A stretch of DNA of 36,017 nt. Origin: an uncultured delta proteobacterium (GTDB lineage: Bacteria; Myxococcota_A; Polyangia; Polyangiales; Polyangiaceae). The notes under the pieces were generated by a model. That model saw only the letters and a list, made by a program, of their open reading frames with translations. It searched no databases and had not been told where the DNA came from. The position numbers and the translations under genes were made by a program. Every line of letters starts with the position of its first letter. Position 1 is the first letter of the stretch. Shown here piece by piece: positions 10,459 to 36,017 of this stretch. The stretch covers positions 1 to 36,017 of the forward strand of contig CAIVJW010000448.1 of the NCBI GenBank assembly GCA_903906315.1, in the 5' to 3' direction.

Positions 10459-10546
10459 TGCTTCGCCGGATTCGCCCCGGCGACCTCAAGACCCCGCGAT
10501 CGGGCCCCTCGGCCGGACCGCGCGCCGGTGCACCGCCGGCGCACCC

Positions 10547-10551
10547 AGGAG
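10547..10551 (+). promoter_or_regulatory. Ribosome binding site fixing the response regulator start
   Basis: AGGAG, 6 nt before GTG 10558. It settles the start well inside a longer open frame whose upstream part is not receiver-like. Confidence 0.75.
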
Positions 10552-10557
10552 ATTCTC

Positions 10558-11403
10558 GTGGCAGCCACCGTCCTCGCCGTCGACGACAGCGTCACCCTGC
10601 GCAAGGTGCTCGAAATCACCTTCGCGGGCCCGGACTTCCGCTGCGTGACAGCGAGCAGCGCCGACGCGGCGCTCCAGAAGCTCCGGAGCGACAAGCCCGA
10701 CGTGGTGGTCGCCGACGTCACCCTCGACGTCAAGAACGGCTACGAGCTCTGCCGGGCCATCAAGCAGGTGTCGCCGGAGACGCCGGTCCTCATCCTGTCG
10801 TCGAAGCACAACCCGTACGACCCCGCCAAGGGGTCGTCCGCGCAGGCCGACGACTACATGGACAAGCCGTTCGACACGCAGCAGATGATCGACAAGGTCA
10901 AGAAGCTGATCGCGGCGAAGGGCGAGGCGAAGCCCAAAGCCGCGCCGCTGCCGACCGCGCCGGTCGCGCAGCGCGCCCGCACCCTGACCTACAGCGCGGC
11001 GACGGGCGGCATGGGCGGCACGAGCGGGTCCGGTCCCATCGCCTTGACGCCGCAGCCCCGCGCGCCGGTCGCGCCCGCGCTCGGGACGCCCGCGACGGGC
11101 ATGCCGCTGCAGGCGCGCCTGCCCCCGCGCGACGCGACGCCGGTGAGCCCTGCCGCGATGCCGACGCGCACCCCCGCCGCGCCGCCGGTCGCGCCCGTCG
11201 CGCAAGCCCCTGTCGCCGCCGCGGTCGCCGCGCCCGTGAACGGCCAGATGGCCGCGAAGCTCGCCGACCTCGGCCTCACGCCGGCGCAGGTCGACGCGGT
11301 GCTGACGCTGTCGCGCGAGGTGGTCGAGCGCGTGGTGTGGGAGGTCGTGCCGGTGCTCGCCGAGACGATCATCAAGGAAGAGATCGCGCGCCTGACCAGG
11401 TGA
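10558..11403 (+). CDS. Response regulator with receiver domain and helical C-terminal module
   Basis: 281 residues. The N-terminal CheY-like receiver (1-120) has the acidic pair D9/D10, phospho-acceptor D53 (VVVADVTLD), switch S81 and K103 in DDYMDKPF, so all key residues are present. No DNA-binding output domain follows. Instead there is a Pro/Ala/Thr-rich linker (~125-235) and a C-terminal helical segment of ~45 residues (LADLGLTPAQVDAVLTLSRE, then VERVVWEVVPVLAETIIKEE). This tail recurs on deltaproteobacterial/myxobacterial regulators and probably mediates protein contacts; that is recalled, not tested. The partner kinase is not in the window. The TGA stop lies inside the first of three tandem hairpin repeats. 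Confidence 0.9.
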   Translation: MAATVLAVDDSVTLRKVLEITFAGPDFRCVTASSADAALQKLRSDKPDVVVADVTLDVKNGYELCRAIKQVSPETPVLILSSKHNPYDPAKGSSAQADDYMDKPFDTQQMIDKVKKLIAAKGEAKPKAAPLPTAPVAQRARTLTYSAATGGMGGTSGSGPIALTPQPRAPVAPALGTPATGMPLQARLPPRDATPVSPAAMPTRTPAAPPVAPVAQAPVAAAVAAPVNGQMAAKLADLGLTPAQVDAVLTLSREVVERVVWEVVPVLAETIIKEEIARLTR

Positions 11404-11495
11404 CGTTGGGGCCGCGAGCGGCCCCAAACCTTGGGTGACGTTGGGGCCGCGAGCGGCCCCCAACCCCAGGTGACGTTGGGGCCGCGAGCGGCCCC
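11401..11495. repeat. Three 35-bp-period tandem hairpin repeats
   Basis: Three identical 25-bp cores begin at 11401, 11436 and 11471 and are separated by 10-nt variable spacers, giving an exact 35-bp period. Each core contains GGGGCCGC-GA-GCGGCCCC, a GC-rich stem. In copy 1 it extends to TTGGGGCCGC/GCGGCCCCAA (11406-11427). The first three bases of copy 1 are the stop codon of the response regulator gene. There are no T-tracts. The array may act as a strong 3' mRNA structure or terminator, or may be a dispersed repeat caught here. Confidence 0.9.
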
Positions 11496-11626
11496 GGGCG
11501 TTGGGCGCCGCCGATGCGCGGCCGGGGCGACGACCGGCCGTGGCGGGTCGCGCCCGTCCACGCAGGCGGCGCTCGTGTCGCTTCTGGGCGCCGGATCCTG
11601 CGGCTTGTGGCAATCTCCGCGGCCGC

Positions 11627-14446
11627 ATGACGACCGAACTCGCCAAAGCCTACGATCCCAAGGACGTCGAGCCGCGCTGGTACCAGTACTGGCTCGACCA
11701 CGGCGTGTTCGCCGCGAGCGACGCGCCCGGCGACGCGCGCCCGACGTACGTCCTGCCGATGCCGCCGCCCAACGTCACGGGGTCGCTGCACATGGGGCAC
11801 GCGCTCTTCTGCACGCTCGAGGACGTGCTCGTGCGCTTCCACCGGATGGACGGCTACAACACGCTGTGGCAGCCGGGCATCGACCACGCGGGCATCGCCA
11901 CGCAGACGGTCGTCGAGCGCATCCTGAAGCGCGAGGGCAAGACGCGGCACGACCTCGGCCGCGAGAAGTTCCTCGAGCGCGTGTGGGACTGGAAGGCGCA
12001 GAGCGGCGACCGCATTCAGCTGCAGCAGCGCGTGCTCGGCGTGTCGGCCGACTGGCCGCGATCGAAGTTCACGATGGACGCGGACCTGTCGAAGGCCGTC
12101 CGCGAGGCGTTCGTGCGGCTCTACGAGGAGGGCCTCATCTACCGCGACAAGCGCCTCGTCTACTGGGACTGCGAGGTGCACACGGTGCTCTCGAACCTCG
12201 AGGTCGACAACGAGCCGGCCAAGGGGGAGCTCTTCGAGTTCGCCTACGAGGTCGAGGGCGGCGGCGAGATCGTCGTCGCGACGACGCGCCCCGAGACGAT
12301 GCTCGGCGACACGGCCGTCGCCGTGCACCCCGACGACCCCAGGTACACGCACCTGCACGGCAAGCGCGTGCGGCACCCCTTCCTCGACCGCACGTTCCCG
12401 ATCATCTGCGACGCCGTGCTCGTCGACCCGAAGTTCGGCACCGGCGCCGTGAAGGTGACGCCGTCGCACGACTTCAACGACTTCGCGACCGGCAAGCGCC
12501 ACGACCTCGAGTTCATCAACCTGCTCACGATCGACGGGAAGCTGAACGAGAACGGCGGCCCGTTCGCGGGGCTGGATCGCTTCGTCGCGCGCAAGGCCGT
12601 GAAGAAGGCGCTCGAGGAGAAGGGCCTCACGCGCGGGTCGAAGCCGCACGACCTGGTGCTGCCGAAGAGCCAGCGCACGGGCACCGTCGTCGAGCCGATG
12701 ATGTCGACGCAGTGGTACGTGAAGATGGCGCCGCTCGCCGAGCCTGCGATCGCCGCGGTCCGCGAGGGCAAGACCAAGATCATCCCCGAGGAGTGGACCA
12801 AGACGTACGAGCACTGGATGACGAACATCCTCGACTGGTGCATCTCGCGTCAGCTCTGGTGGGGTCACCGCGTGCCGGCGTTCTACTGCGCCGACTGCGA
12901 TCACGTGACGGTGACGCGCGAGGACGCGCCCGCGACGTGCGGCGGCTGCGGCGGGGCGAGCCTGCGGCAGGACGAGGACGTGCTCGACACGTGGTTCTCG
13001 AGCGGTCTCTGGCCGTTCTCGACGCTCGGCTGGCCCGAGAAGACGCCGGCGCTCGAGCGCTTCTACCCGGCGAGCGATCTCGAGACGGGCTACGACATCC
13101 TCTTCTTCTGGGTCGCCCGCATGATGATGATGGGCATCCACTTCATGGGCGAGCCGCCCTTCAAGCGCATCCTCTTGCACGGCCTCGTCGTCGACGAGAC
13201 GGGCGACAAGATGAGCAAGGTGAAGGGCAACGTCATCGACCCGCTCGACCTCATCCACGGAGCGACGTTCGACGCCGTGATCGAGAAGGCGCTGCCGGGC
13301 GCGCCGCACGACGAGGCGCTCCGCAAGTTCAAGAAGGCGTACCCGTCGGCCGGGCAGATGGGCGCGGGCTTCGCGTCATACGGCGCGGACGCGATGCGCT
13401 TCACGCTCGCGAGCTACTCGCCGCAGGCCAAGCGCATCCCGCTCTCGCCGAAGAAGATCGAGGGATACCGCAACTTCTGCAACAAGATCTGGAACGCGAC
13501 GCGCTTCGCGCTCGGCTACATCGACGGCGCGACGGTCGGCGCGACGCCGCCGAGGGCGACGACGCTCGCGAACCGCTGGATCCTGTCGCGCTTCGCGTTC
13601 GCGATCGACGGCGCGCGCACGGGCATCGCGGACTTCCGGCTCGATGACGCCAGCTCGGCGCTCTACCAGTTCTTCTGGGGCGACCTCTGCGACTGGTTCC
13701 TCGAGCTCACGAAGCCCACCTTCAACCCGAGCGAGGCGCTCGGCCCGGCCGCGGAGGGGCAGAAGGACGAGACGCGCGACGTGCTCGCCTACGTGATCGA
13801 GGGCGCGCTTCGGGCGCTGCACCCGTTCATTCCGTTCCTCACCGAGGAGCTCTGGCACCGCGTGCCGCGCGCGCCGGGCGCGCCGGTGTCGCTCGCGCTC
13901 GCGAGCTACCCGACGCCCGCGACGGCGCCGCGGGACCTCGACGCCGAGCGCGACATGGCCGCCGTGCAGGCCGTCATCGGCGCGGCGCGCTCGATCCGCA
14001 GCGAGCACGAGGTGCACCCGGGCGCGGAGATCCCGCTCGTGCTCCGCACCGACGACGCGCGCGTCGCCGCGCTGCTCGTGGCCGAGACGCGGGCGATCCG
14101 CACGCTCGTGAAGACGGCGGGGGCGCCGACGATCGAGGCGCGCGGCGGGGCGCGCCCGCACGGCACGGTGATGAGCGTCGCGGCCGAGACCGAGGTGCTG
14201 GTCGCGCTCAAGGGCCTCGTCGACCCGGCCAAGGAGACGGCGCGCGTCGATCGCGAGCTCAAGAAGGTCGAGAAGGACGTCGCCGCGCTCGAGAAGAAGC
14301 TCGCGCTGCCGAGCTTCGCCGACAAGGCGCCGCCGGAGCTCGTCGCGGAGTCGAAGGCGCAGCTCGAGGAGCTGCAGCGCAAGCGCGTCGCGCTCGGCGA
14401 GGCGCAGGGGCTCGCGGCGGAGCTCGGCGAAGCAGAGAAGCCGTAG
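11627..14446 (+). CDS. valS: Valyl-tRNA synthetase
   Basis: 939 residues from the ATG at 11627, the normal size for class Ia ValRS, which charges tRNA-Val and edits mischarged threonine. The HIGH motif is HMGH (55-58) within PPPNVTGSLHMGHAL. KMSKV (528-532) is the KMSKS equivalent. The editing (CP1) domain lies between, with TTRPETMLGDTAVAVHPDD and the KVTPSHDFNDF segment. A CxxC...CxxC zinc-like insert (FYCADCDHVTV, TCGGCGG) sits before DVLDTWFSSGLWPF. The anticodon-binding domain and a C-terminal coiled coil of ~65 residues (DRELKKVEKDVAALEKKL) complete the protein. The open frame extends upstream to 11501, but the conserved N-terminus starts at the chosen ATG. It is transcribed after the hairpin array and appears monocistronic. 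Confidence 0.97.
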   Translation: MTTELAKAYDPKDVEPRWYQYWLDHGVFAASDAPGDARPTYVLPMPPPNVTGSLHMGHALFCTLEDVLVRFHRMDGYNTLWQPGIDHAGIATQTVVERILKREGKTRHDLGREKFLERVWDWKAQSGDRIQLQQRVLGVSADWPRSKFTMDADLSKAVREAFVRLYEEGLIYRDKRLVYWDCEVHTVLSNLEVDNEPAKGELFEFAYEVEGGGEIVVATTRPETMLGDTAVAVHPDDPRYTHLHGKRVRHPFLDRTFPIICDAVLVDPKFGTGAVKVTPSHDFNDFATGKRHDLEFINLLTIDGKLNENGGPFAGLDRFVARKAVKKALEEKGLTRGSKPHDLVLPKSQRTGTVVEPMMSTQWYVKMAPLAEPAIAAVREGKTKIIPEEWTKTYEHWMTNILDWCISRQLWWGHRVPAFYCADCDHVTVTREDAPATCGGCGGASLRQDEDVLDTWFSSGLWPFSTLGWPEKTPALERFYPASDLETGYDILFFWVARMMMMGIHFMGEPPFKRILLHGLVVDETGDKMSKVKGNVIDPLDLIHGATFDAVIEKALPGAPHDEALRKFKKAYPSAGQMGAGFASYGADAMRFTLASYSPQAKRIPLSPKKIEGYRNFCNKIWNATRFALGYIDGATVGATPPRATTLANRWILSRFAFAIDGARTGIADFRLDDASSALYQFFWGDLCDWFLELTKPTFNPSEALGPAAEGQKDETRDVLAYVIEGALRALHPFIPFLTEELWHRVPRAPGAPVSLALASYPTPATAPRDLDAERDMAAVQAVIGAARSIRSEHEVHPGAEIPLVLRTDDARVAALLVAETRAIRTLVKTAGAPTIEARGGARPHGTVMSVAAETEVLVALKGLVDPAKETARVDRELKKVEKDVAALEKKLALPSFADKAPPELVAESKAQLEELQRKRVALGEAQGLAAELGEAEKP

Positions 14447-14696: not shown

Positions 14697-17600
14697 GTGG
14701 AACACGAAAAGCGAGCACCTCATGTAAGTGGCACAGCTGTGCTCGCTTGCGTCGTCGTCGTCGCGAGCTGCGGCGCCGACCCCCGGGAAACGGCGAGCGA
14801 TTCGCCCAGCGCGCACCTCGCGCCCACGGCGCTCGGCACGGCAACGGAGGCGCGGCTTCGCGTCACGGCGCTGCGAGATCGCTTCCGCATCCCGACGATC
14901 CCCGCCGAGCCCCCGAACGCCGAACGACGACCCGCCTCGACGCCGCGGGAGTCGGAGCCCGTGGCCGTGGTGGGCCCCGGCGTCGCCACGTCCTTCGAGC
15001 CGACCGGCACCGGGAGCGTCCGCGCCGTGGTCCCGCGCGAGGCGAAGCGCCGGGTGCTTCGGGCCGCGACCGTCGAGCTGCCCCTGCGCGCGAACGCGAT
15101 GGCGCGGGTGGAGGACGACACCACGCACGTGAGCGTCGGATTCGCCCTGCGCGACGCGGTCGACGCGCCCATCGGCGTGGCCGACGGGATCGCCGTCTAC
15201 GCCGGCGCGCTCGCGGGGAGCGCGGTCGTGCACCGGGTCCACGCCGAGGGGACCGAGGACTTCGTCGTGATCGAGACGAGGCCGGCCCGCGAGGAGCTCG
15301 TCTACGACGTCGACGTGTCGCGCGTGGCGGGGCTTCGGCTCGTCAGCAACACGCTCGAGTTCCTGGACGAAGGGGGCGCGCCGCGGCTGCGCGTGGCGCC
15401 GCCGTATGTCGTCGACGCGAGCGGAATCCGGACCGATGCGCGGATCGCGGTCGACGGGTGCGCCTATGACACGGATGCCAGCGGGCCTTGGGGGCGCGCG
15501 GTGACGCGGGCCGGTGCGCCGCGCTGTGGGGTGCGCGTGACGTGGAGCGGAGCGCAATACCCGCTGATCGTGGATCCGAGCTGGATGGCGACCGGGTCGA
15601 TGGCGACGAACCGCGCGTTTCACTCCGCGACGCTCCTCCCCTCTGGCAAGGTGCTGCTTGCGGCCGGTTTCGCCGGCGCCGGAGCCGTCGTGCTGGCGAG
15701 CGCGGAGCTCTTCGATGGGAGCGCGAGCTTCGCCGCCACCGGCTCGATGACGACGGCGCGCAGGAGTCACACAGCGACGCTCCTGGCCTCCGGCAAGGTG
15801 CTCGTGGCGGGTGGAACCGACGTCACCAACAAGTCCATCGCGAGCGCCGAGCTCTTCGACGGGAATGCCGGCTTCGCGCCCACCGGACCGATGACGAAGA
15901 TCCGCGCCGGCCACAGCGCGACGAGGCTCCCCTCGGGGAAGGTCCTCGTCGCCGGCGGAATGAGCGCCGTGTACTTGTCGACCGCAGAGCTCTTCGACGG
16001 GAGCGCGAGCTTCGCGGCCACCGGCTCGATGACGACGGCACGCGTCGCTCACACTGCCACGCTGCTCCCCTCGGGCAAGGTGCTCGTCGCCGGCGGATCC
16101 TACGGCGGGGATTTGTCTGGCGCAGAGCTCTTCGACGGGAACGCGAGCTTCACAGCCACCGGCTCGATGACGACGCCCCGCTCCAGCCACACCGCGACAC
16201 TCCTCCCCTCGGGCAAGGTCCTCATGGCGGGAAGCGGATCGAGCGCGGAGCTCTTCGACGGGGGCGCGAGCTTCGCGGCCACCGGCTCGATGGCGGACGC
16301 CCGCAGAGGCCCCACGGCAACCTTGCTGCCTTCGGGCAAGGTCCTCGTCGTGGGCGGCGACGGGGGGGGTGGGGTCTATCTGTCGAGCAGCGAGGCCTAC
16401 GACGGGACCGCGAGCTTCTCAGCTACCGGCTCGATGGCCAAGGCACGCACCGGCCACACGGCGACGCTGCTCCTCTCGGGTCAAGTGCTCGTCACCGGCG
16501 GCATGGTAACCGGCAATGTCACGCTGGAGACCGCGGAGCTTCTCGGCATCGCGGCAGGCGCTCCCTGCGCCGGGGCAGCTGACTGCGCCTCCGGCTTCTG
16601 CAATGACGGCGTCTGCTGCGCGGGTCCGTGCGTCGGAGTCTGCTCGACGTGTGTCCTGGCGACAGGGGTGTGCGCGCTGGTGAAGAACGCCGTCGACCCC
16701 GACACCTGTGCAGTCGCCAACACCTGCGACCCGAGCGGCGCCTGCAAGCTCGCGAGCGGCCAGCCCGCGAACGACCCGGCGACCTGCGCGAGCGGCTTCG
16801 CCTCCGACGGCGCGTGCTGCGACACGGCCTGCGGCGCGGCGTGCGACGTGTGCCTGAAGTCGCTGGGTGCCCTCGCGGACGGCACGTGCTCCACCGCCCC
16901 CGCCGGCTACCCGGGCGAGCCTACGTGCGGCAACGGGCTCGCGTGCGACGGCGCGAGCTTGACCTGCCCCTCCTCGTGCGTCTCCGACCTCGACTGCGTG
17001 GCCGACGACTACTGCGCCGCGGACGGCACCTGCCGGCCGGTAGCGCTTCAAGGCGACTCGTGCAACACCGCCGCAGGCGCCGACTGCTTCGAGCCAGGCT
17101 GTCGCGAGTGCGCGACGGCCCAATGCGTCGACGGGGTGTGCTGTGACACCGCGTGCGACACCCCTTGTCAGGCGTGCACCGCCGCCCTGAAAGAGTCCGG
17201 GGCGGACAACGGCACCTGCGGCGCCGCGAAGGCGCAAACGAACCCCCACCACGACCCGTGCGAAACGAGCCCTACCTCGACCTGCGGCCCCAACGGGCTC
17301 TGCAGCGGCGCGGGGGCCTGCGGCCTCTACTACCCGCCCGGGACCTCGTGCGGCCCAAGCGTCTGCCTGCCCGGCAACAAGGCCGTCGGCGACGTCTGCA
17401 ACGGGAGCGGCAACTGCGGCACCGACCCTGGCGGCGTCAACTGCAACGAGTATCTCTGCGTCGACGGCTCGTGCCCGAGCCAGTGCGCGACCGATGCGGA
17501 TTGCATCGAGACAGCCTATTGCCAGACGGGCAAGTGCATCGCGAAGACGAGCAATGGCGCTGCATGTAAGAGCGCCAATCAATGCGCCAGCGCATTCTGC

Positions 17601-18338
17601 GTCGACGGGCGTTGCTGCAACGGCGCCTGCGACAGTCAGTGCTCCGCCTGCGACGCGACGGGGACCGAGGGGACGTGTACGCCGATCGTCGGCGCGCCCC
17701 ACAACGGTCGCCCGATGTGCCCGAGTGCCGACGCGACCAAGCCTTGCGCGACGGCGACCTGCGACGGCGTCACGGCCTCGACCTGCACGGGCTTCGTGGG
17801 CTCCGGCACGTCGTGCCGCGCGGCGAGCTGCGAGAGCGGACTGCAAACGCTCCGGGCGAACTGCGACGGCAAGGGGGGCTGCCCGGAAGCGACCACGAAG
17901 CCGTGCGCTTCCTTCGCGTGCGGCTCCACCGAGTGCAACACGACGTGCGCCGCCGATACGGACTGTGCTTCAGGCTACACGTGCGACAAGTCGACGAGCA
18001 CGTGCGTCTCCGGCGCTACGTGCGGCGCGGACGGCCACACGGCGACCGGCGCCAGCGGCACCACGACCGACTGCGCTCCGTTCAACTGCGATGGCAAGGG
18101 CTCGTGCAGGACGGCGTGCAGCAGCGTCGACGACTGCGCCTCTCCCAACGTCTGCGATGGATTTCACCACTGCGTCGCGCCCACGGCCTCCGCGTCCGGC
18201 GATGGCGGCGACTCGGGCGGATGCACGGTCGGCGCGGCTCGGCCGCAGCACTCCCCGTCGCGCACCCCGGCACTGATCGTCGTCCTCGGGCTCGCGGGCC
18301 TCGCCGCTCGCCGACGCCGAGCCGACCTCGTGACTTGA
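14697..18338 (+). CDS. Surface-anchored seven-repeat kelch-like, Cys-rich protein (paralogue 1)
   Basis: Predicted 1213 residues from GTG 14697, chosen because it gives a signal sequence like the paralogue's. A hydrophobic stretch ends VVVVASC, a lipobox-like VASC. Residues ~35-290 form a conserved domain shared with paralogue 2 (VELPLRANAMARVEDDTTH, VHRVHAEGTEDFVV, LEFLDEGGAPRLRVAPPYVV). Residues ~296-610 are seven kelch-like repeats of 42-50 residues with the core 'TGSM...R..HTATLLPSGKVLVAGG...AELFDG.ASF', consistent with one seven-bladed propeller. Residues ~620-1170 are Cys-rich, with many 'CVDGVCCDTAC' modules. The tail GGCTVG, a hydrophobic stretch and ARRRR match the MYXO-CTERM sorting-signal layout. 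Such Cys-rich proteins are often mislabelled as tryptophan synthase alpha chain. Adhesion or matrix binding is inference. Confidence 0.85.
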   Translation: MEHEKRAPHVSGTAVLACVVVVASCGADPRETASDSPSAHLAPTALGTATEARLRVTALRDRFRIPTIPAEPPNAERRPASTPRESEPVAVVGPGVATSFEPTGTGSVRAVVPREAKRRVLRAATVELPLRANAMARVEDDTTHVSVGFALRDAVDAPIGVADGIAVYAGALAGSAVVHRVHAEGTEDFVVIETRPAREELVYDVDVSRVAGLRLVSNTLEFLDEGGAPRLRVAPPYVVDASGIRTDARIAVDGCAYDTDASGPWGRAVTRAGAPRCGVRVTWSGAQYPLIVDPSWMATGSMATNRAFHSATLLPSGKVLLAAGFAGAGAVVLASAELFDGSASFAATGSMTTARRSHTATLLASGKVLVAGGTDVTNKSIASAELFDGNAGFAPTGPMTKIRAGHSATRLPSGKVLVAGGMSAVYLSTAELFDGSASFAATGSMTTARVAHTATLLPSGKVLVAGGSYGGDLSGAELFDGNASFTATGSMTTPRSSHTATLLPSGKVLMAGSGSSAELFDGGASFAATGSMADARRGPTATLLPSGKVLVVGGDGGGGVYLSSSEAYDGTASFSATGSMAKARTGHTATLLLSGQVLVTGGMVTGNVTLETAELLGIAAGAPCAGAADCASGFCNDGVCCAGPCVGVCSTCVLATGVCALVKNAVDPDTCAVANTCDPSGACKLASGQPANDPATCASGFASDGACCDTACGAACDVCLKSLGALADGTCSTAPAGYPGEPTCGNGLACDGASLTCPSSCVSDLDCVADDYCAADGTCRPVALQGDSCNTAAGADCFEPGCRECATAQCVDGVCCDTACDTPCQACTAALKESGADNGTCGAAKAQTNPHHDPCETSPTSTCGPNGLCSGAGACGLYYPPGTSCGPSVCLPGNKAVGDVCNGSGNCGTDPGGVNCNEYLCVDGSCPSQCATDADCIETAYCQTGKCIAKTSNGAACKSANQCASAFCVDGRCCNGACDSQCSACDATGTEGTCTPIVGAPHNGRPMCPSADATKPCATATCDGVTASTCTGFVGSGTSCRAASCESGLQTLRANCDGKGGCPEATTKPCASFACGSTECNTTCAADTDCASGYTCDKSTSTCVSGATCGADGHTATGASGTTTDCAPFNCDGKGSCRTACSSVDDCASPNVCDGFHHCVAPTASASGDGGDSGGCTVGAARPQHSPSRTPALIVVLGLAGLAARRRRADLVT
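14709..14748. promoter_or_regulatory. Perfect 10-bp inverted repeat overlapping a 12-bp palindrome at a gene start
   Basis: AAGCGAGCAC (14709-14718) and GTGCTCGCTT (14739-14748) are exact reverse complements with a 20-nt loop. The loop's end plus the right arm contain the perfect palindrome GCACAGCTGTGC (14731-14742), so two mutually exclusive structures are possible. It lies within the signal-peptide codons of paralogue 1. A role as operator or mRNA structure is inference. Confidence 0.55.
15582..16543 (+). repeat. Seven kelch-like coding repeats, paralogue 1
   Basis: Imperfect direct repeats of about 125-150 bp, with a recurring GAGCTCTTCGACGGGA and a following ACCGGCTCGATG, encode the seven propeller repeats. 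Blade 5 is the shortest because its inter-strand loop is reduced. Confidence 0.85.
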
Positions 18339-18403: not shown

Positions 18404-21400
18404 ATGCGAGCCTGGATCGTTTGGTGTGCGCGGACGACCTTCGCCGTGCTCGTCGTGGCGAGCTGCGGCACCGATCGTCGAGAACCCGCTTCCGGTCCCA
18501 CCGACTCGCCCTCGACGCCAACCGCCGTCTCGCGGTCGGACGCGGCGCGGGCCCGCGTGTCGGCGCTCCGGCGGCGCTTCCACGTCACGCCCGCCGCCTG
18601 GCCCGATCTCACCGAGCACGAGCCGCTCCCCACGCCGGCGCCGAGGCCCGTGATCGGCGAAGCCGCCGCCACGTCCTTCGAGGCGACCGCTGCCGGAAGC
18701 CTCCGCGCAGTCCTCCCGCACGAGGCGAAGCGCGCAGTCCTGCGAGCCGCGAGCGTCGAGCTTCCGCTGCGCGCGGACGCGATGGCGCGAGTCGAGGACG
18801 ACGCGACGCACGTGAGCATCGGGTTCGCACTGCGCGACGCCAGCGCCGCACCGATCGCGGTGGCCGACGGTATCGCGATTTACGCCGGCGCGCTTGCGGG
18901 GAGCGACGTGGTGCACCGCGTCCACGCGGAGGGGACGGAGGACTTCGTCGTGTTCGAGGCGAAGCCCGCGCGCGAGGAGCTCGTCTACGAGGTCGAGGTG
19001 TCCCGCGTGGCCGGCCTGCGGCTCGTGAACGGCACGCTGGAGTTCCTCGACGAGGGCGGCGCGCCGCGCCTTCGCGTGGCGCCGCCGTACGTGGTGGACG
19101 AAAGCGGCACGCAGAGCGCCGCGACGATTGCTGTCTTGGGGTGCGCTCATGACACGGATCCGAGCGCACCCTGGGGGCGACCGGTGACGAGGGCTGGTGC
19201 CTCGCGGTGCGAGGTGCGCGTCGCTTGGCACGGGACGGGGTATCCGCTGCTGGTCGACCCGAGCTGGACGGTGACGGGGTCGATGACGACTGCGCGCTAC
19301 CGGCACACCGCGACGCTGCTCGCTTCGGGCAAGGTGCTCATCGTCGGCGGCAACATCGGCGGCGTGATCACGAACGGGGCGGAGTTCTTCGACGGGAGCT
19401 CGAGCTTCGCCGCCACCGGCTGGATGACCACACCTCGGGAAAACCACACGGCGACGCTGCTCCCGTCTGGCAAGGTGCTCATCGCGGGCGGCAACACCGA
19501 CGCCGCCCTCCCGCTGAGCAGCGCGGCGCTTTTCGACGGAATTGGCAGCTTCGTCAATACCGGCTCGATGACGGCGCCGCGCCTCGAGCACACAGCCACA
19601 CTCTTGCCGTCTGGCAAGGTGCTCATTGCAGGTGGCCGCAACAAGGTGGCTTTCGAGGCCAGCGCGGAGCTCTTCGACGGAGGCGCGAGCTTCGCCCCGA
19701 CCGGCGCCATGGCGACCGGGCGTTACGGCCACAGGGCGACGCTCCTCGCCTCTGGCAAGGTCCTCGTCACGGGCGGACGAGGCGTCAGCGGAGACCTGTC
19801 GAGCGCCGAGGTCTTCGACGGGAACGGGAGCTTCACCCCGACCTCCTCGATGGGGGCCGTGCGCAAATATCACACCTCGACCCTCCTCTCGTCGGGGAAA
19901 GTGCTCGTCACGGGCTGGGGGGCGAGCGCGGAGCTCTTCGATGGAAGCGGCAGCTTCGCCCCGACCGGATCGATGGGCGCGACGCGCTCGAATCACACGG
20001 CGACCCTGCTGCCGTCGGGGAAGGTGCTCGTCGTCGGCGGGTACGCCCTGACGGAGCTCTTCGACGGGCACACGAGCTTCGGCGAGGCCGGCTCGATGTC
20101 GGCTGGACGCGCCTACCACACCGCGACGCTGCTGCCGTCGGGCCAGACGCTCGTGGCGGGCGGCTACATCACTTCGAGCGCGGAGCTATTCGGCGTGCCT
20201 GCCGGCGCTCCGTGCGCCGCCGCGCTCGACTGCGGCTCCGACATCTGCAACGACGGCATCTGCTGTGTGGGCCCGTGCGGCGGACTCTGCACGACCTGCG
20301 CGGCAGGGACGGGCGCGTGCACCTCGGTGAAGGACGCCGTGGACGCCGACAGCTGCGGACCTTCGACCTACGCTCTCGTCGGCGCCTACCATGGCGGGTC
20401 GCCCGACGTGAACGCGATCGACTTCCAGAGCGGGTTCGTCACCGAATCCGCGGTGGCGGACGGCTCCAAGGGCAAGAGCGCCCTGCGGTTCATCGCCACC
20501 ACCGACGGCACGCCCGGCAACCCCAACAAGTACGCCTACTGGCGGTTCTCGACGGCGTCGAGAGTCCTGGAGGCAGGCGACCACGTCGAGTACGACGTCT
20601 ACCTGGAGAGCGCCATTCCTGGCACCGGCGGCCTCGACATCCAGAACACCGACGGGACGTACTGGCGTGGAGAGGCTGGCTGGGCAGACCAGAACGGGGT
20701 CGGTGCCCATCCGGCGACCGACCTCACCTCGTACGCCACCGGCCAGTGGTACCACCGGATCCTTGCCGTTCCCGCTGGCGTGCTCGGCAAGACGATCGCG
20801 AGCTGGGACGTCGTGGACGAGGACGACGCCGTCTCCCGGACGGCGTCCGTCTACTACGCGAACGTGGCGATCACGAACGGCGTCCATGGGGTCAAGTCGA
20901 ACCGTTGCGACCCGAACGGGGTGTGCAAGCTCGCGAGCGGACAGCCCGCCTCGGATCCCGCAACCTGCGCGAACGGTCTCGCCTCCGACGGCTTCTGCTG
21001 TGACACGGCCTGCGGCGCGGCGTGCGACGTATGCGCCAAGTCGCTGGGTGCGCTCACGGACGGCACCTGCTCTGCGGCCGCCGTCGCGTACGCCGGCGAC
21101 CCCGCCTGCGGCAACGGCTTCGCGTGCGACGGAGTGAGCGTGATCTGCCCAGCCACGTGCGTATCCGACATCGACTGTCTCGCAGGCGACTACTGCGCGG
21201 CGAACGGCGCGTGCCGGGTGCAGAAGGCCCAAGGCGACGCGTGCAGCGGCGCCGCGGGGGCCGACTGCCTCGAAGGAGGGTGCCGCGAGTGCGCGACCGG
21301 TCACTGCGTCGACGGCGTCTGCTGCGACACGGCCTGTGACGCGCTCTGCCAGGCCTGCAGCGCGGCCCTCAAGGAGTCGGCGCTGGGCGACGGCGTGTGC

Positions 21401-22588
21401 GACAGCGTGAAGGCGCAGACCAACCCGCACGGCGACAACTGCCCGGACCAGGGAGCCGCGGCGTGCGGCGCGAACGGCCTCTGCAGCGGGGCGGGCGCGT
21501 GCAGCCTCTACTACCCGGCCGGGACCTCGTGCGGCGCAGGCGTGTGCCTCCCCGGCAACAAGGCAGGCGGCGACATCTGCAGCGGGAGCGGGAAATGCAG
21601 CGCAGACCCCGTGGGCGTCAGCTGCGAGAACTACCTTTGCGACCAGGGCTCGTGTCCCAGCACGTGCGTCGCTGACGCGCAGTGCGTCGCGACGGCCTCG
21701 TGCCAGCAGGGCAAGTGCGTCACCAGAGCGGTCGATGGCGCCCCGTGCACCGGCGCCAATCAGTGCATGAGCAACCTCTGCGTGGACGGCTACTGCTGCA
21801 ATGGCGCATGCGCGGGTCAATGCGCGGCGTGTGACGCGCCCGGCACGGAGGGGACCTGCACCCTGGTCGTCGGTGCGCCGCACGGAGGCCGGCCCACGTG
21901 CGGCGTCGCCGACGCGAGCGCTCCTTGCTCGGCGACGACGTGCGACGGAGTCACCTCGACGACCTGCGGCGGATTCGTGGGATCCAAGACGTCGTGCCGG
22001 GCAGGGAGCTGCGCGAGCGGCGTGGAAACGCTGCCGGCGAGCTGCGACGGCAAGGGCGAGTGCCCCGTCGTGATCACGAAGCCGTGCGCGCCGTACGCAT
22101 GCGGGGAGGCGGTGTGCAAGACCACGTGCGGCGCGGACGCCGACTGCGCGTCGGGCAGCAGCTGCGACGAGTCGACGGGCGCGTGCGTCGCGGGGGCGAC
22201 CTGCGGCAAGGACGGCCACACGGCGACCCGCGTCGACGGCACCAGCGTCGACTGTGCCCCGTTCAACTGCGACGGCACGGGAGCGTGCCGGACGACCTGC
22301 GGCACCGTGGATGACTGCGCCTCTCCCAGCGTCTGCGACGGCGCGCGCCGCTGCGTGGCGCCGGGCGCGTCCGGCGACGAATCGGCCGGGTGTGCGGTGT
22401 CCGCGCGTCCGCTTGGCGGGTCCGCTCCACGCCTCCCCGCGCTGCTCGTCGCGATCGGCCTCGCGGCCCTCGGGGTGCGCCGGCGCCGCGCACGCCCCGG
22501 CGCCTTCCCGCCCGACGGCCGGAGGTCGGGCGAGGCCGCTACGAACCGAGATCGATCGCCGGCGGGACCGCGCCGTCCGCGGAGATGA
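18404..22588 (+). CDS. Surface-anchored seven-repeat kelch-like, Cys-rich protein with inserted domain (paralogue 2)
   Basis: 1394 residues, from an ATG with a good ribosome binding site. Signal segment MRAWIVWCARTTFAVLVVAS precedes a lipobox-type cysteine (VASC). The order follows paralogue 1: conserved N-terminal domain (~35-287), seven kelch-like repeats (~288-600), Cys-rich stalk and a MYXO-CTERM-like end (AGCAVS, hydrophobic stretch, VRRRR). Two differences stand out. A segment of ~183 residues (20357-20905) interrupts the first part of the Cys-rich stalk; it is cysteine-free after its first position, beta-prone and aromatic (YWRFSTASRVL, HVEYDVYLES, GQWYHRILAVPAG), and resembles a jelly-roll/galactose-binding module. 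The C-terminus also continues ~30 residues beyond the Arg cluster, overlapping the convergent kinase gene by 50 bp. It lies 65 bp after paralogue 1, so tandem duplication and cotranscription are likely. Confidence 0.87.
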   Translation: MRAWIVWCARTTFAVLVVASCGTDRREPASGPTDSPSTPTAVSRSDAARARVSALRRRFHVTPAAWPDLTEHEPLPTPAPRPVIGEAAATSFEATAAGSLRAVLPHEAKRAVLRAASVELPLRADAMARVEDDATHVSIGFALRDASAAPIAVADGIAIYAGALAGSDVVHRVHAEGTEDFVVFEAKPAREELVYEVEVSRVAGLRLVNGTLEFLDEGGAPRLRVAPPYVVDESGTQSAATIAVLGCAHDTDPSAPWGRPVTRAGASRCEVRVAWHGTGYPLLVDPSWTVTGSMTTARYRHTATLLASGKVLIVGGNIGGVITNGAEFFDGSSSFAATGWMTTPRENHTATLLPSGKVLIAGGNTDAALPLSSAALFDGIGSFVNTGSMTAPRLEHTATLLPSGKVLIAGGRNKVAFEASAELFDGGASFAPTGAMATGRYGHRATLLASGKVLVTGGRGVSGDLSSAEVFDGNGSFTPTSSMGAVRKYHTSTLLSSGKVLVTGWGASAELFDGSGSFAPTGSMGATRSNHTATLLPSGKVLVVGGYALTELFDGHTSFGEAGSMSAGRAYHTATLLPSGQTLVAGGYITSSAELFGVPAGAPCAAALDCGSDICNDGICCVGPCGGLCTTCAAGTGACTSVKDAVDADSCGPSTYALVGAYHGGSPDVNAIDFQSGFVTESAVADGSKGKSALRFIATTDGTPGNPNKYAYWRFSTASRVLEAGDHVEYDVYLESAIPGTGGLDIQNTDGTYWRGEAGWADQNGVGAHPATDLTSYATGQWYHRILAVPAGVLGKTIASWDVVDEDDAVSRTASVYYANVAITNGVHGVKSNRCDPNGVCKLASGQPASDPATCANGLASDGFCCDTACGAACDVCAKSLGALTDGTCSAAAVAYAGDPACGNGFACDGVSVICPATCVSDIDCLAGDYCAANGACRVQKAQGDACSGAAGADCLEGGCRECATGHCVDGVCCDTACDALCQACSAALKESALGDGVCDSVKAQTNPHGDNCPDQGAAACGANGLCSGAGACSLYYPAGTSCGAGVCLPGNKAGGDICSGSGKCSADPVGVSCENYLCDQGSCPSTCVADAQCVATASCQQGKCVTRAVDGAPCTGANQCMSNLCVDGYCCNGACAGQCAACDAPGTEGTCTLVVGAPHGGRPTCGVADASAPCSATTCDGVTSTTCGGFVGSKTSCRAGSCASGVETLPASCDGKGECPVVITKPCAPYACGEAVCKTTCGADADCASGSSCDESTGACVAGATCGKDGHTATRVDGTSVDCAPFNCDGTGACRTTCGTVDDCASPSVCDGARRCVAPGASGDESAGCAVSARPLGGSAPRLPALLVAIGLAALGVRRRRARPGAFPPDGRRSGEAATNRDRSPAGPRRPRR
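19265..20195 (+). repeat. Seven kelch-like coding repeats, paralogue 2
   Basis: Seven imperfect repeats with the same core as in paralogue 1, again with short repeats at positions 5 and 6. Equal repeat number in both genes suggests the propeller predates the duplication. Confidence 0.85.
20357..20905 (+). other. Inserted ~183-residue beta-rich domain, coding part of paralogue 2
   Basis: Paralogue 1 has only five residues (AVANT) between the two flanking cysteines, whereas paralogue 2 has this whole module. The residues on both sides align well (NAVDPDTC/DAVDADSC before; CDPSGACKLASGQPA/CDPNGVCKLASGQPA after), so the insertion ends are sharp. Carbohydrate binding is suggested by the beta-rich, Trp/Tyr-rich character only. 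Confidence 0.7.
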
Positions 22589-35716: not shown

Positions 35717-36017
35717 ATGGATCGTCTTCTCCTCCCCGCCCTCGCGCTCGCCCCCCTCCTCGCGATCGCCGCCGCGGCCTGCGGGTCCGGCGACGGGGCG
35801 AACGCGGGCGGCGACGGGACCTCGTCCTCGACGACGAGCGGCGGCGAGGGCGGCGCGGCCACGACGAGCGCCTCCGGTGGCGCGGGCGGGGCGTCGACCA
35901 CCACGGCCTCCGGCGGCGCGGGCGGCGCGACGACCACGAGCGCCGGCGGCGCGGGCGGGTCGACCACCACCACGGGCGCCGGCGGCGCGGGCGGGGTGCC
36001 CGGCGCGTGGTGCCAGC
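35717..36017 (+). CDS. Lipoprotein with Gly/Ala/Thr repeat linker (partial, runs off window)
   Basis: The first 100 residues are present; the gene continues past the right edge. MDRLLLPALALAPLLAIAAA precedes AC, with C22 as the likely lipidated cysteine. A linker of tandem Gly-Gly-Ala-Gly-Gly and Thr/Ser blocks follows (for example GGAGGASTTTASGGAGGATT), close in style to the linker of the small Cys-rich lipoprotein at 27654-28151. The visible part ends GAWCQ as a folded domain probably begins. The opposite-strand frame is Val/Pro/Ala low complexity and is rejected. The mature domain lies outside the window, so no function can be given. Confidence 0.8.
   Translation, partial: MDRLLLPALALAPLLAIAAAACGSGDGANAGGDGTSSSTTSGGEGGAATTSASGGAGGASTTTASGGAGGATTTSAGGAGGSTTTTGAGGAGGVPGAWCQ
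35875..35997 (+). repeat. Tandem GC-rich repeats in lipoprotein linker
   Basis: About four imperfect units of 30-36 bp built from GGCGGCGCGGGCGGG followed by a short ACGACCACG-like block. All differences keep the reading frame. Confidence 0.7.

Follow-up and report, generated by a model that had tools for sequence, protein, structure and literature searches.

The window analysed here, a stretch of 36,017 nucleotides on contig CAIVJW010000448.1, contains a short repeat array between a response-regulator gene and valS (the RR-valS spot). The host family was taken to be Polyangiaceae (Myxococcota), and the genome to which the window belongs (G000) is a draft of 8.79 Mb in 455 contigs with an estimated completeness of 98.55%. 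The features at this site are as follows:

10528–11403, forward strand: response-regulator gene (gene call) with a receiver domain (PF00072, E 2.3e-22); its TGA stop lies inside the first core
11399–11425, forward strand: repeat copy 1, core, with hairpin H1 at 11408–11425 and pairing that can be extended to 11406–11427
11426–11433, forward strand: spacer 1, AAACCTTG, similar in the family alignment to the beginning of the AAACCCC linker
11434–11460, forward strand: repeat copy 2, identical core, with H1 at 11443–11460
11461–11468, forward strand: spacer 2, CAACCCCA, with one mismatch to the family linker AAACCCC
11469–11495, forward strand: repeat copy 3, identical core, with H1 at 11478–11495
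11627–14446, forward strand: valS, the downstream gene in the same direction, 131 nt past the array

The three identical 27-nt cores (GGTGACGTTGGGGCCGCGAGCGGCCCC) start at positions 11399, 11434 and 11469, with spacings of 35 and 35 nt, and comprise the 25 nt recognized in an earlier note on this DNA plus two G. The note's description of an exact triple array with a period of 35 bp was confirmed, and the three-core pattern was not matched once in 100 dinucleotide shuffles. The gene call likewise agrees with the note that the TGA in the core, at 11401–11403, is the in-frame stop codon of the response-regulator gene, and the H1 hairpin of copy 1 starts 4 nt after this stop. A single copy has a predicted fold of -17.8 kcal/mol, and the fold predicted for 11396–11560, in which arms of different copies are able to cross-pair, is far stabler than those of shuffled sequences (z -5.2). 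The spacers, of 8–10 nt, are mutually related and are not the unique, roughly repeat-length spacers of a CRISPR-like array, which was correctly ruled out at the outset; the missing T-tract was also borne out, with no T-tract terminator found at window positions 11000–12000. No Rfam family scored above its gathering score in the window, and a single tRNA did so in 16 further loci, such that, this tRNA aside, membership in an Rfam family was rejected. The second hairpin of the repeat family, H2, is absent at its usual place in the window array. Elsewhere in the window, positions 14961–18338 and 18557–22588 encode two adjacent large Kelch-repeat proteins, the DNA of which also carries tandem repeats of 123–138 bp, and a 36-bp tandem repeat is located at the window end (35839–35994).

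The proposal that the core is a dispersed repeat held for the hairpin, while the full core turned out to be local to this spot. In the genome-wide search that the note had suggested, the exact 21-mer GTTGGGGCCGCGAGCGGCCCC was found in G000 only at the three places in the window array. Allowing up to two mismatches gave 78 matches, and the reversed control gave 1; the commonest form in this genome is GATGGGGCCGCGAGCGGCCCC. We searched 108 genomes of the family for the 18-bp H1 hairpin, GGGGCCGCNNGCGGCCCC, and recovered it at 66 places in G000, at 271 in Minicystis rosea DSM 24000 (G097; CP016211.1) and at 25 in a Byssovorax metagenome-assembled genome (G003); six of the remaining 105 genomes have a single place each and the rest have none.

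All copies are on one strand in 28 of the 29 multi-copy clusters, and the copies of one array have private changes in common, such as GGAACC in locus L070, GGGGGCGC in L087 and CTGGCC in L106 and L077. Such sharing favours local duplication, and the amplification suspected from the identical cores is supported as a local event. Jointly with the gene-3'-end reading set out below, we have moderate confidence that the window array arose when a single member of a dispersed family of palindromic repeats was triplicated locally, head to tail. At least 13 contigs of G000 start or end in or near repeats (C103, C112, C108, C114, C139, C240 and C244, and further C282, C284, C286, C303, C364 and C439; loci L075, L077–L079, L084, L085, L093, L094, L098–L101, L108 and L115); the repeats thus break the assembly, and the copy numbers of arrays are likely underestimated. 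At the start of contig C240 (L093:23-35), behind an H1 copy, is the sequence AGATCGGAAGAGC, which had no other match in 414 loci and which we take to resemble an Illumina adapter. No Y1 transposase (PF01797) was identified in G000 or G003, and mobilization by a RAYT was rejected on these grounds. A single weak match of 26 bits was obtained in Minicystis (L315, G097:C1:12045756-12045965), with no H1 copy at up to three mismatches in the 3.2 kb around it.

The position of the arrays relative to protein genes was examined in G000 with our own codon-usage gene caller. Among the 62 clusters scored, 49 were assessed; the 13 left out comprise eight that lie at a contig edge and have no gene upstream, four inside called genes and the one chance match in the window. 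The upstream gene is on the strand of the array in 44 of the 49 cases (p 8e-9 against one half), and five arrays are located behind a gene on the opposite strand. The distance from the stop codon to H1 is exactly 7 nt in 24 of the 49 arrays, 4 nt in 6 and at most 15 nt in 34, with 10 arrays, including one behind a tRNA-Cys gene, more than 15 nt from a stop. The stop codons of the host genes within 60 nt of an array (n = 40) are TAG in 33, TGA in 6 and TAA in 1, as compared to 88, 172 and 4, respectively, for the other genes in the same stretches (n = 264; p 4e-9 for the difference in TAG). In the 24 copies at 7 nt, the tetranucleotide with the TAG stop is GTAG in 13, TTAG in 7 and CTAG in 4. 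Of the 64 arrays outside gene calls among the 71 loci listed for Minicystis, 56 follow a gene in their own orientation, and the modal distance is once more 7 nt (16 arrays), here with a TGA stop in 14 of the 16. Thus, the stop codon changes between the two genomes, whereas the spacing stays the same.

In a 400-kb even-step sample of the Minicystis genome, H1 was found within 90 nt of 10 of 190 free gene ends, one of them reversed, and in an even-step sample of the same size from G122, which we take to be a Sorangium-like genome, at one of 142, with a poor match. The gap to the next gene has a median of 216 behind hosts and 60 elsewhere, and hosts show no enrichment for convergent neighbours (13 of 31, against 87 of 254 for other genes). 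The hosts in G000 include genes for RpoZ, the ribosomal proteins S9, L20 and S21, FtsH, PurH and citrate synthase. The inference of a dispersed family located at gene ends is well supported by these data.

Protein genes are not the sole hosts. A tRNA scan of 55 loci from G000, 23 from G003 (some places represented twice) and 71 from Minicystis identified five arrays directly behind tRNA genes on the same strand, in three genomes, with 10–14 nt between the tRNA end and H1:

tRNA-Cys, G000, same strand: 11 nt to H1
tRNA-Asp, G003, same strand: 14 nt to H1
tRNA-Arg, G003, same strand: 11 nt to H1
tRNA-Met, Minicystis, same strand: 10 nt to H1
tRNA-Gly, Minicystis, same strand: 12 nt to H1

Behind nine other tRNAs tested in the scanned loci no H1 was found; this count does not include one further tRNA, in L189, or a questionable one in L091. 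A distance of 7 nt from a stop codon equals 10 nt from the final sense base, so the spacing is nearly alike for protein and tRNA genes. The anchor is therefore the 3' end of the gene and not translation as such.

The anatomy of the unit was derived from 55 G000 stretches around copies, all put in one orientation. The usual order is gene end, a leader ending in CGAT, H1 with a CRAG-type loop, AAACCCC and the second hairpin, H2. The leader covers about 10 nt from the last sense base or tRNA end and in protein genes includes the stop codon, after which it reads, for instance, TCNCGAT or has a 4-nt form, CGAT, CGTT or AGAT. For the analysis of H2 each array contributed its first element alone, H1 being allowed no more than one mismatch, and identical rows were collapsed (from 41 to 37 in G000 and from 79 to 59 in Minicystis). 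Using perfect stems of at least 5 bp, H2 was found to start 7 nt after H1 in 21 of 41 elements in G000, 50 of 79 in Minicystis and 7 of 15 in Byssovorax, and was not found in 10, 13 and 5 of these, respectively. Its sequence varies and the pairing is kept, with 72% paired cells against 57% in shuffled alignments for the 41 elements in G000 and 87% against 75% for the 79 elements in Minicystis. In both genomes the covariation score and the paired cells exceeded those of 500 of 500 shuffles and of every slid register. There was no excess of pairs changed on both sides (shuffles as high in 276 of 500 for G000 and 98 of 500 for Minicystis); the number of pair types was in excess in Minicystis (1 of 500 shuffles as high) and not in G000 (221 of 500). 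A covariance model was built from 71 of 135 elements, picked for a recognisable H2, and its computed structure holds H1 only; in the genome search with this model 50 candidates per genome were scored, and the resulting counts are lower bounds.

A T-tract after H2 (at least 5 T in 8 nt) was found in 0 of 49 cases in G000, 0 of 100 in Minicystis and 2 of 10 in G003, with a mean number of T above the control in all three genomes (1.63/1.00, 2.16/1.08 and 2.50/1.70, respectively). As no T-tract follows at once after the hairpin in the window, in any of the 49 G000 cases or in any of the 100 from Minicystis, a canonical intrinsic terminator was rejected. The element behind tRNA-Asp in G003 (L055, 1475–1535), where H2 is followed by a T-rich run, resembles an ordinary terminator.

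We also searched the 108 family genomes for the pattern CGATGGGG-N6-16-CCCCAAACCCC, which was present in nine, with no match to the reversed control in any. The carriers are G000, G003, Minicystis and all six genomes of another genus, g15, each of these six with one to five places. The H1 stems in g15 are GGGGGGT, GGGGGGCG and similar, with the loop CCGAGA, and one copy (L385, about 1501, in G111) has a perfect 14-bp stem with a CAAG loop, in which the CACGAT and AAACCCC flanks are kept. In a RpoB tree, inferred with a quick method, SH-aLRT support only and a single g15 genome, the genomes G000, G003, G097, the g15 representative, G031 and three Sorangium-like genomes formed one group (8 of 21 rows, support 99). 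In the 108-genome scan the strict pattern was absent from the Sorangium-like genomes and G031, all inside the carrier clade, which indicates that the element is dispensable. A shorter pattern, CACGATGGGG-N6-16-CCCC, gave 6, 5 and 1 candidate matches in G122, G123 and G031 (1, 0 and 0 for the control). The element may have had a single origin with later losses.

Comparisons of orthologous sites provide a test of the earlier suggestion that the array had replaced the original 3' end of the response-regulator gene. The end of the response regulator was seen in 20 of 30 valS loci, which were located by searching for this protein end, so that any locus with a different end would have been missed. 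The g15 form of the element was found 4 nt after the stop in G113 and G014 and 33 nt after it in G112, and in G114 the stop is followed by a related hairpin that lacks AAACCCC. With G000 itself set aside, no such element was seen by eye in the other 15 of the 20. The protein end (EEIARLTK or a close variant of it, in some cases extended by one or two residues) is alike in genomes with the element or related hairpin (G113, G112, G014, G114) and without (G031, G129), and the stop in relatives is TGA or TAG. The array thus stands behind the native stop, and replacement of the 3' end was rejected. At this site the layout is found in two genera with different stems. At the rpoZ site the element is present in only 2 of 29 genomes, G000 and Minicystis, and comparison of 40 host proteins from G000 with 70 sampled hosts from the other two genomes gave three pairs with at least 60% identity that look orthologous, namely RpoZ, a NuoH-like protein and an unnamed protein of 163 aa.

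We interpret these elements, with about an even chance of being right, as a family of palindromic repeats that is tied to the 3' ends of genes within a single clade of Polyangiaceae and acts as a REP-like element of transcript 3' ends. The array would be transcribed as the 3' end of the host RNA, where the hairpin pair may help to set the RNA 3' end by U-tract-free termination or may shield it against 3' exonucleases, and copies would multiply locally through duplication of the palindrome. A role at the RNA 3' end is favoured by the presence of tRNAs among the hosts, by the pairing of two hairpins in one unit and by the wider gap before the next gene. As for termination, the missing T-tract and the lack of enrichment for convergent genes speak against it, although T is slightly commoner after H2 than in the control. 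Because arrays also stand behind tRNA genes, a role in translation only is regarded as a rival. By that account a hairpin behind the stop would stall terminating ribosomes and lower protein output, as described for E. coli REPs less than 16 nt from the stop in the consulted sections of PMC12306157. We judge it improbable: 34 of the 49 arrays in G000 do start within 15 nt of a stop, but the five behind tRNA genes have leaders nearly as long, with no stop codon at which the hairpin could act. An action on DNA, as a binding site for gyrase or a nucleoid protein whose location at gene ends would be coincidental, seems very improbable. The palindromes are near-perfect, and REPs of E. coli are described as targets of gyrase (PMC3733652), yet the strand bias to the upstream gene (44 of 49) and the short fixed spacing point to RNA.

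It is possible, if rather unlikely, that the family is a selfish or neutral REP-like repeat without a host role, spread by some copying mechanism and kept for the most part directly behind genes since its leader brings a stop, since TAG- or TGA-like triplets are the target, or since insertions elsewhere were lost. Counts ranging from 271 to 0 within one family would fit, as would the stop-bearing leaders copied along in tandem arrays (TGATCACGAT in Minicystis, TAGTCTCGAC in L074) and the leader behind tRNA-Cys in G000, which begins with TAG even there; GTAG REPs, according to the portion of PMC3733652 available, also often supply TAG stops and adjoin ORF 3' ends. Against this speak the absence of a Y1 transposase in G000 and G003, Minicystis having one weak match, and an H2 that, 7 nt from H1, varies between loci yet keeps its pairing, which simple copying does not predict. 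A further reading, possible but rather unlikely, is a new class of two-hairpin elements, with a leader of about 10 nt, that would mark the 3' ends of protein genes and tRNA genes alike in a single Polyangiaceae clade and be read by a machinery that forms or protects 3' ends. Each lineage would have exchanged its H1 stem throughout the genome (GGGGCCG in three genera, GGGGGGT/CG in g15) and retained the leader, the motif of the loop, the linker and the location at shared genes, and the class would have spread without a Y1 transposase.

Searches of an open-access literature library listed no description of the H1 family. The Minicystis genome paper (PMC8436480), in the text at hand, makes no mention of palindromes, hairpins, terminators or intergenic regions, and the retrieved sections of PMC12306157 do not mention myxobacteria, Minicystis, Sorangium or Polyangi- names. 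One close likeness is to the GTAG REPs (REP/BIME/SMAG), which in the part of PMC3733652 consulted are dispersed short palindromes by ORF 3' ends, in tandem clusters and uneven among relatives, with termini that often give a TAG stop. The H1 family is also a dispersed short palindrome mainly located 3' of genes. However, no unpaired GTAG stands at the foot of the stem; TAG is 7 nt away, as GTAG in 13 of 24 copies, and is replaced by TGA in Minicystis. Also, no RAYT was found in G000 (a draft, 98.55% complete), 28 of 29 clusters are head-to-tail and not predominantly head-to-head dimers, and the family differs in its second, covarying hairpin and its location behind tRNAs. The CGTC-tagged REPs are palindromes without a dedicated transposase and are defined, in the same partial text (PMC3733652), by a CGTC tag and first stem pairs of A/T, neither of which is seen in the family alignment. 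The leader of the H1 family is instead GTCNCGAT or TGATCACGAT, and the stem starts with a G-run and not with A/T pairs. The H1 family is like REPs in its size, dispersal and location. With the defining tags, as given in PMC3733652, lacking and no RAYT in G000, we file it as a variant of the REP kind that belongs to neither the GTAG nor the CGTC superfamily.

Liang, Rudd and Deutscher reportedly found in 2015 that E. coli REPs near the stop act on translation. For REPs less than 16 nt from the stop in E. coli, ribosome stalling and lower protein output have been reported (PMC12306157, sections seen), and the H1 hairpin is within this distance in 34 of 49 arrays in G000 and at 4 nt in the window; it differs from those REPs in standing behind tRNA genes too. 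Poly-U has been argued to be dispensable for termination where a single hairpin or a pair of them closely follows the gene (PMC8355165), and here, too, hairpins stand close behind the gene and lack a U-tract. In contrast to such hairpin clusters, H1 barely varies across the genome and keeps a nearly constant distance from the gene. REP-like repeats near gene ends are already known, and the H1 family is distinct in its nearly fixed gene spacing, in serving tRNA genes and in a copy number that ranges from 271 to 0 among relatives. The genome with the most copies belongs to Minicystis rosea DSM 24000, a named strain for which a complete sequence exists, and the family provides a natural test of the effect of gene-end hairpins on RNA and of the spread of repeats where no REP transposase was found.
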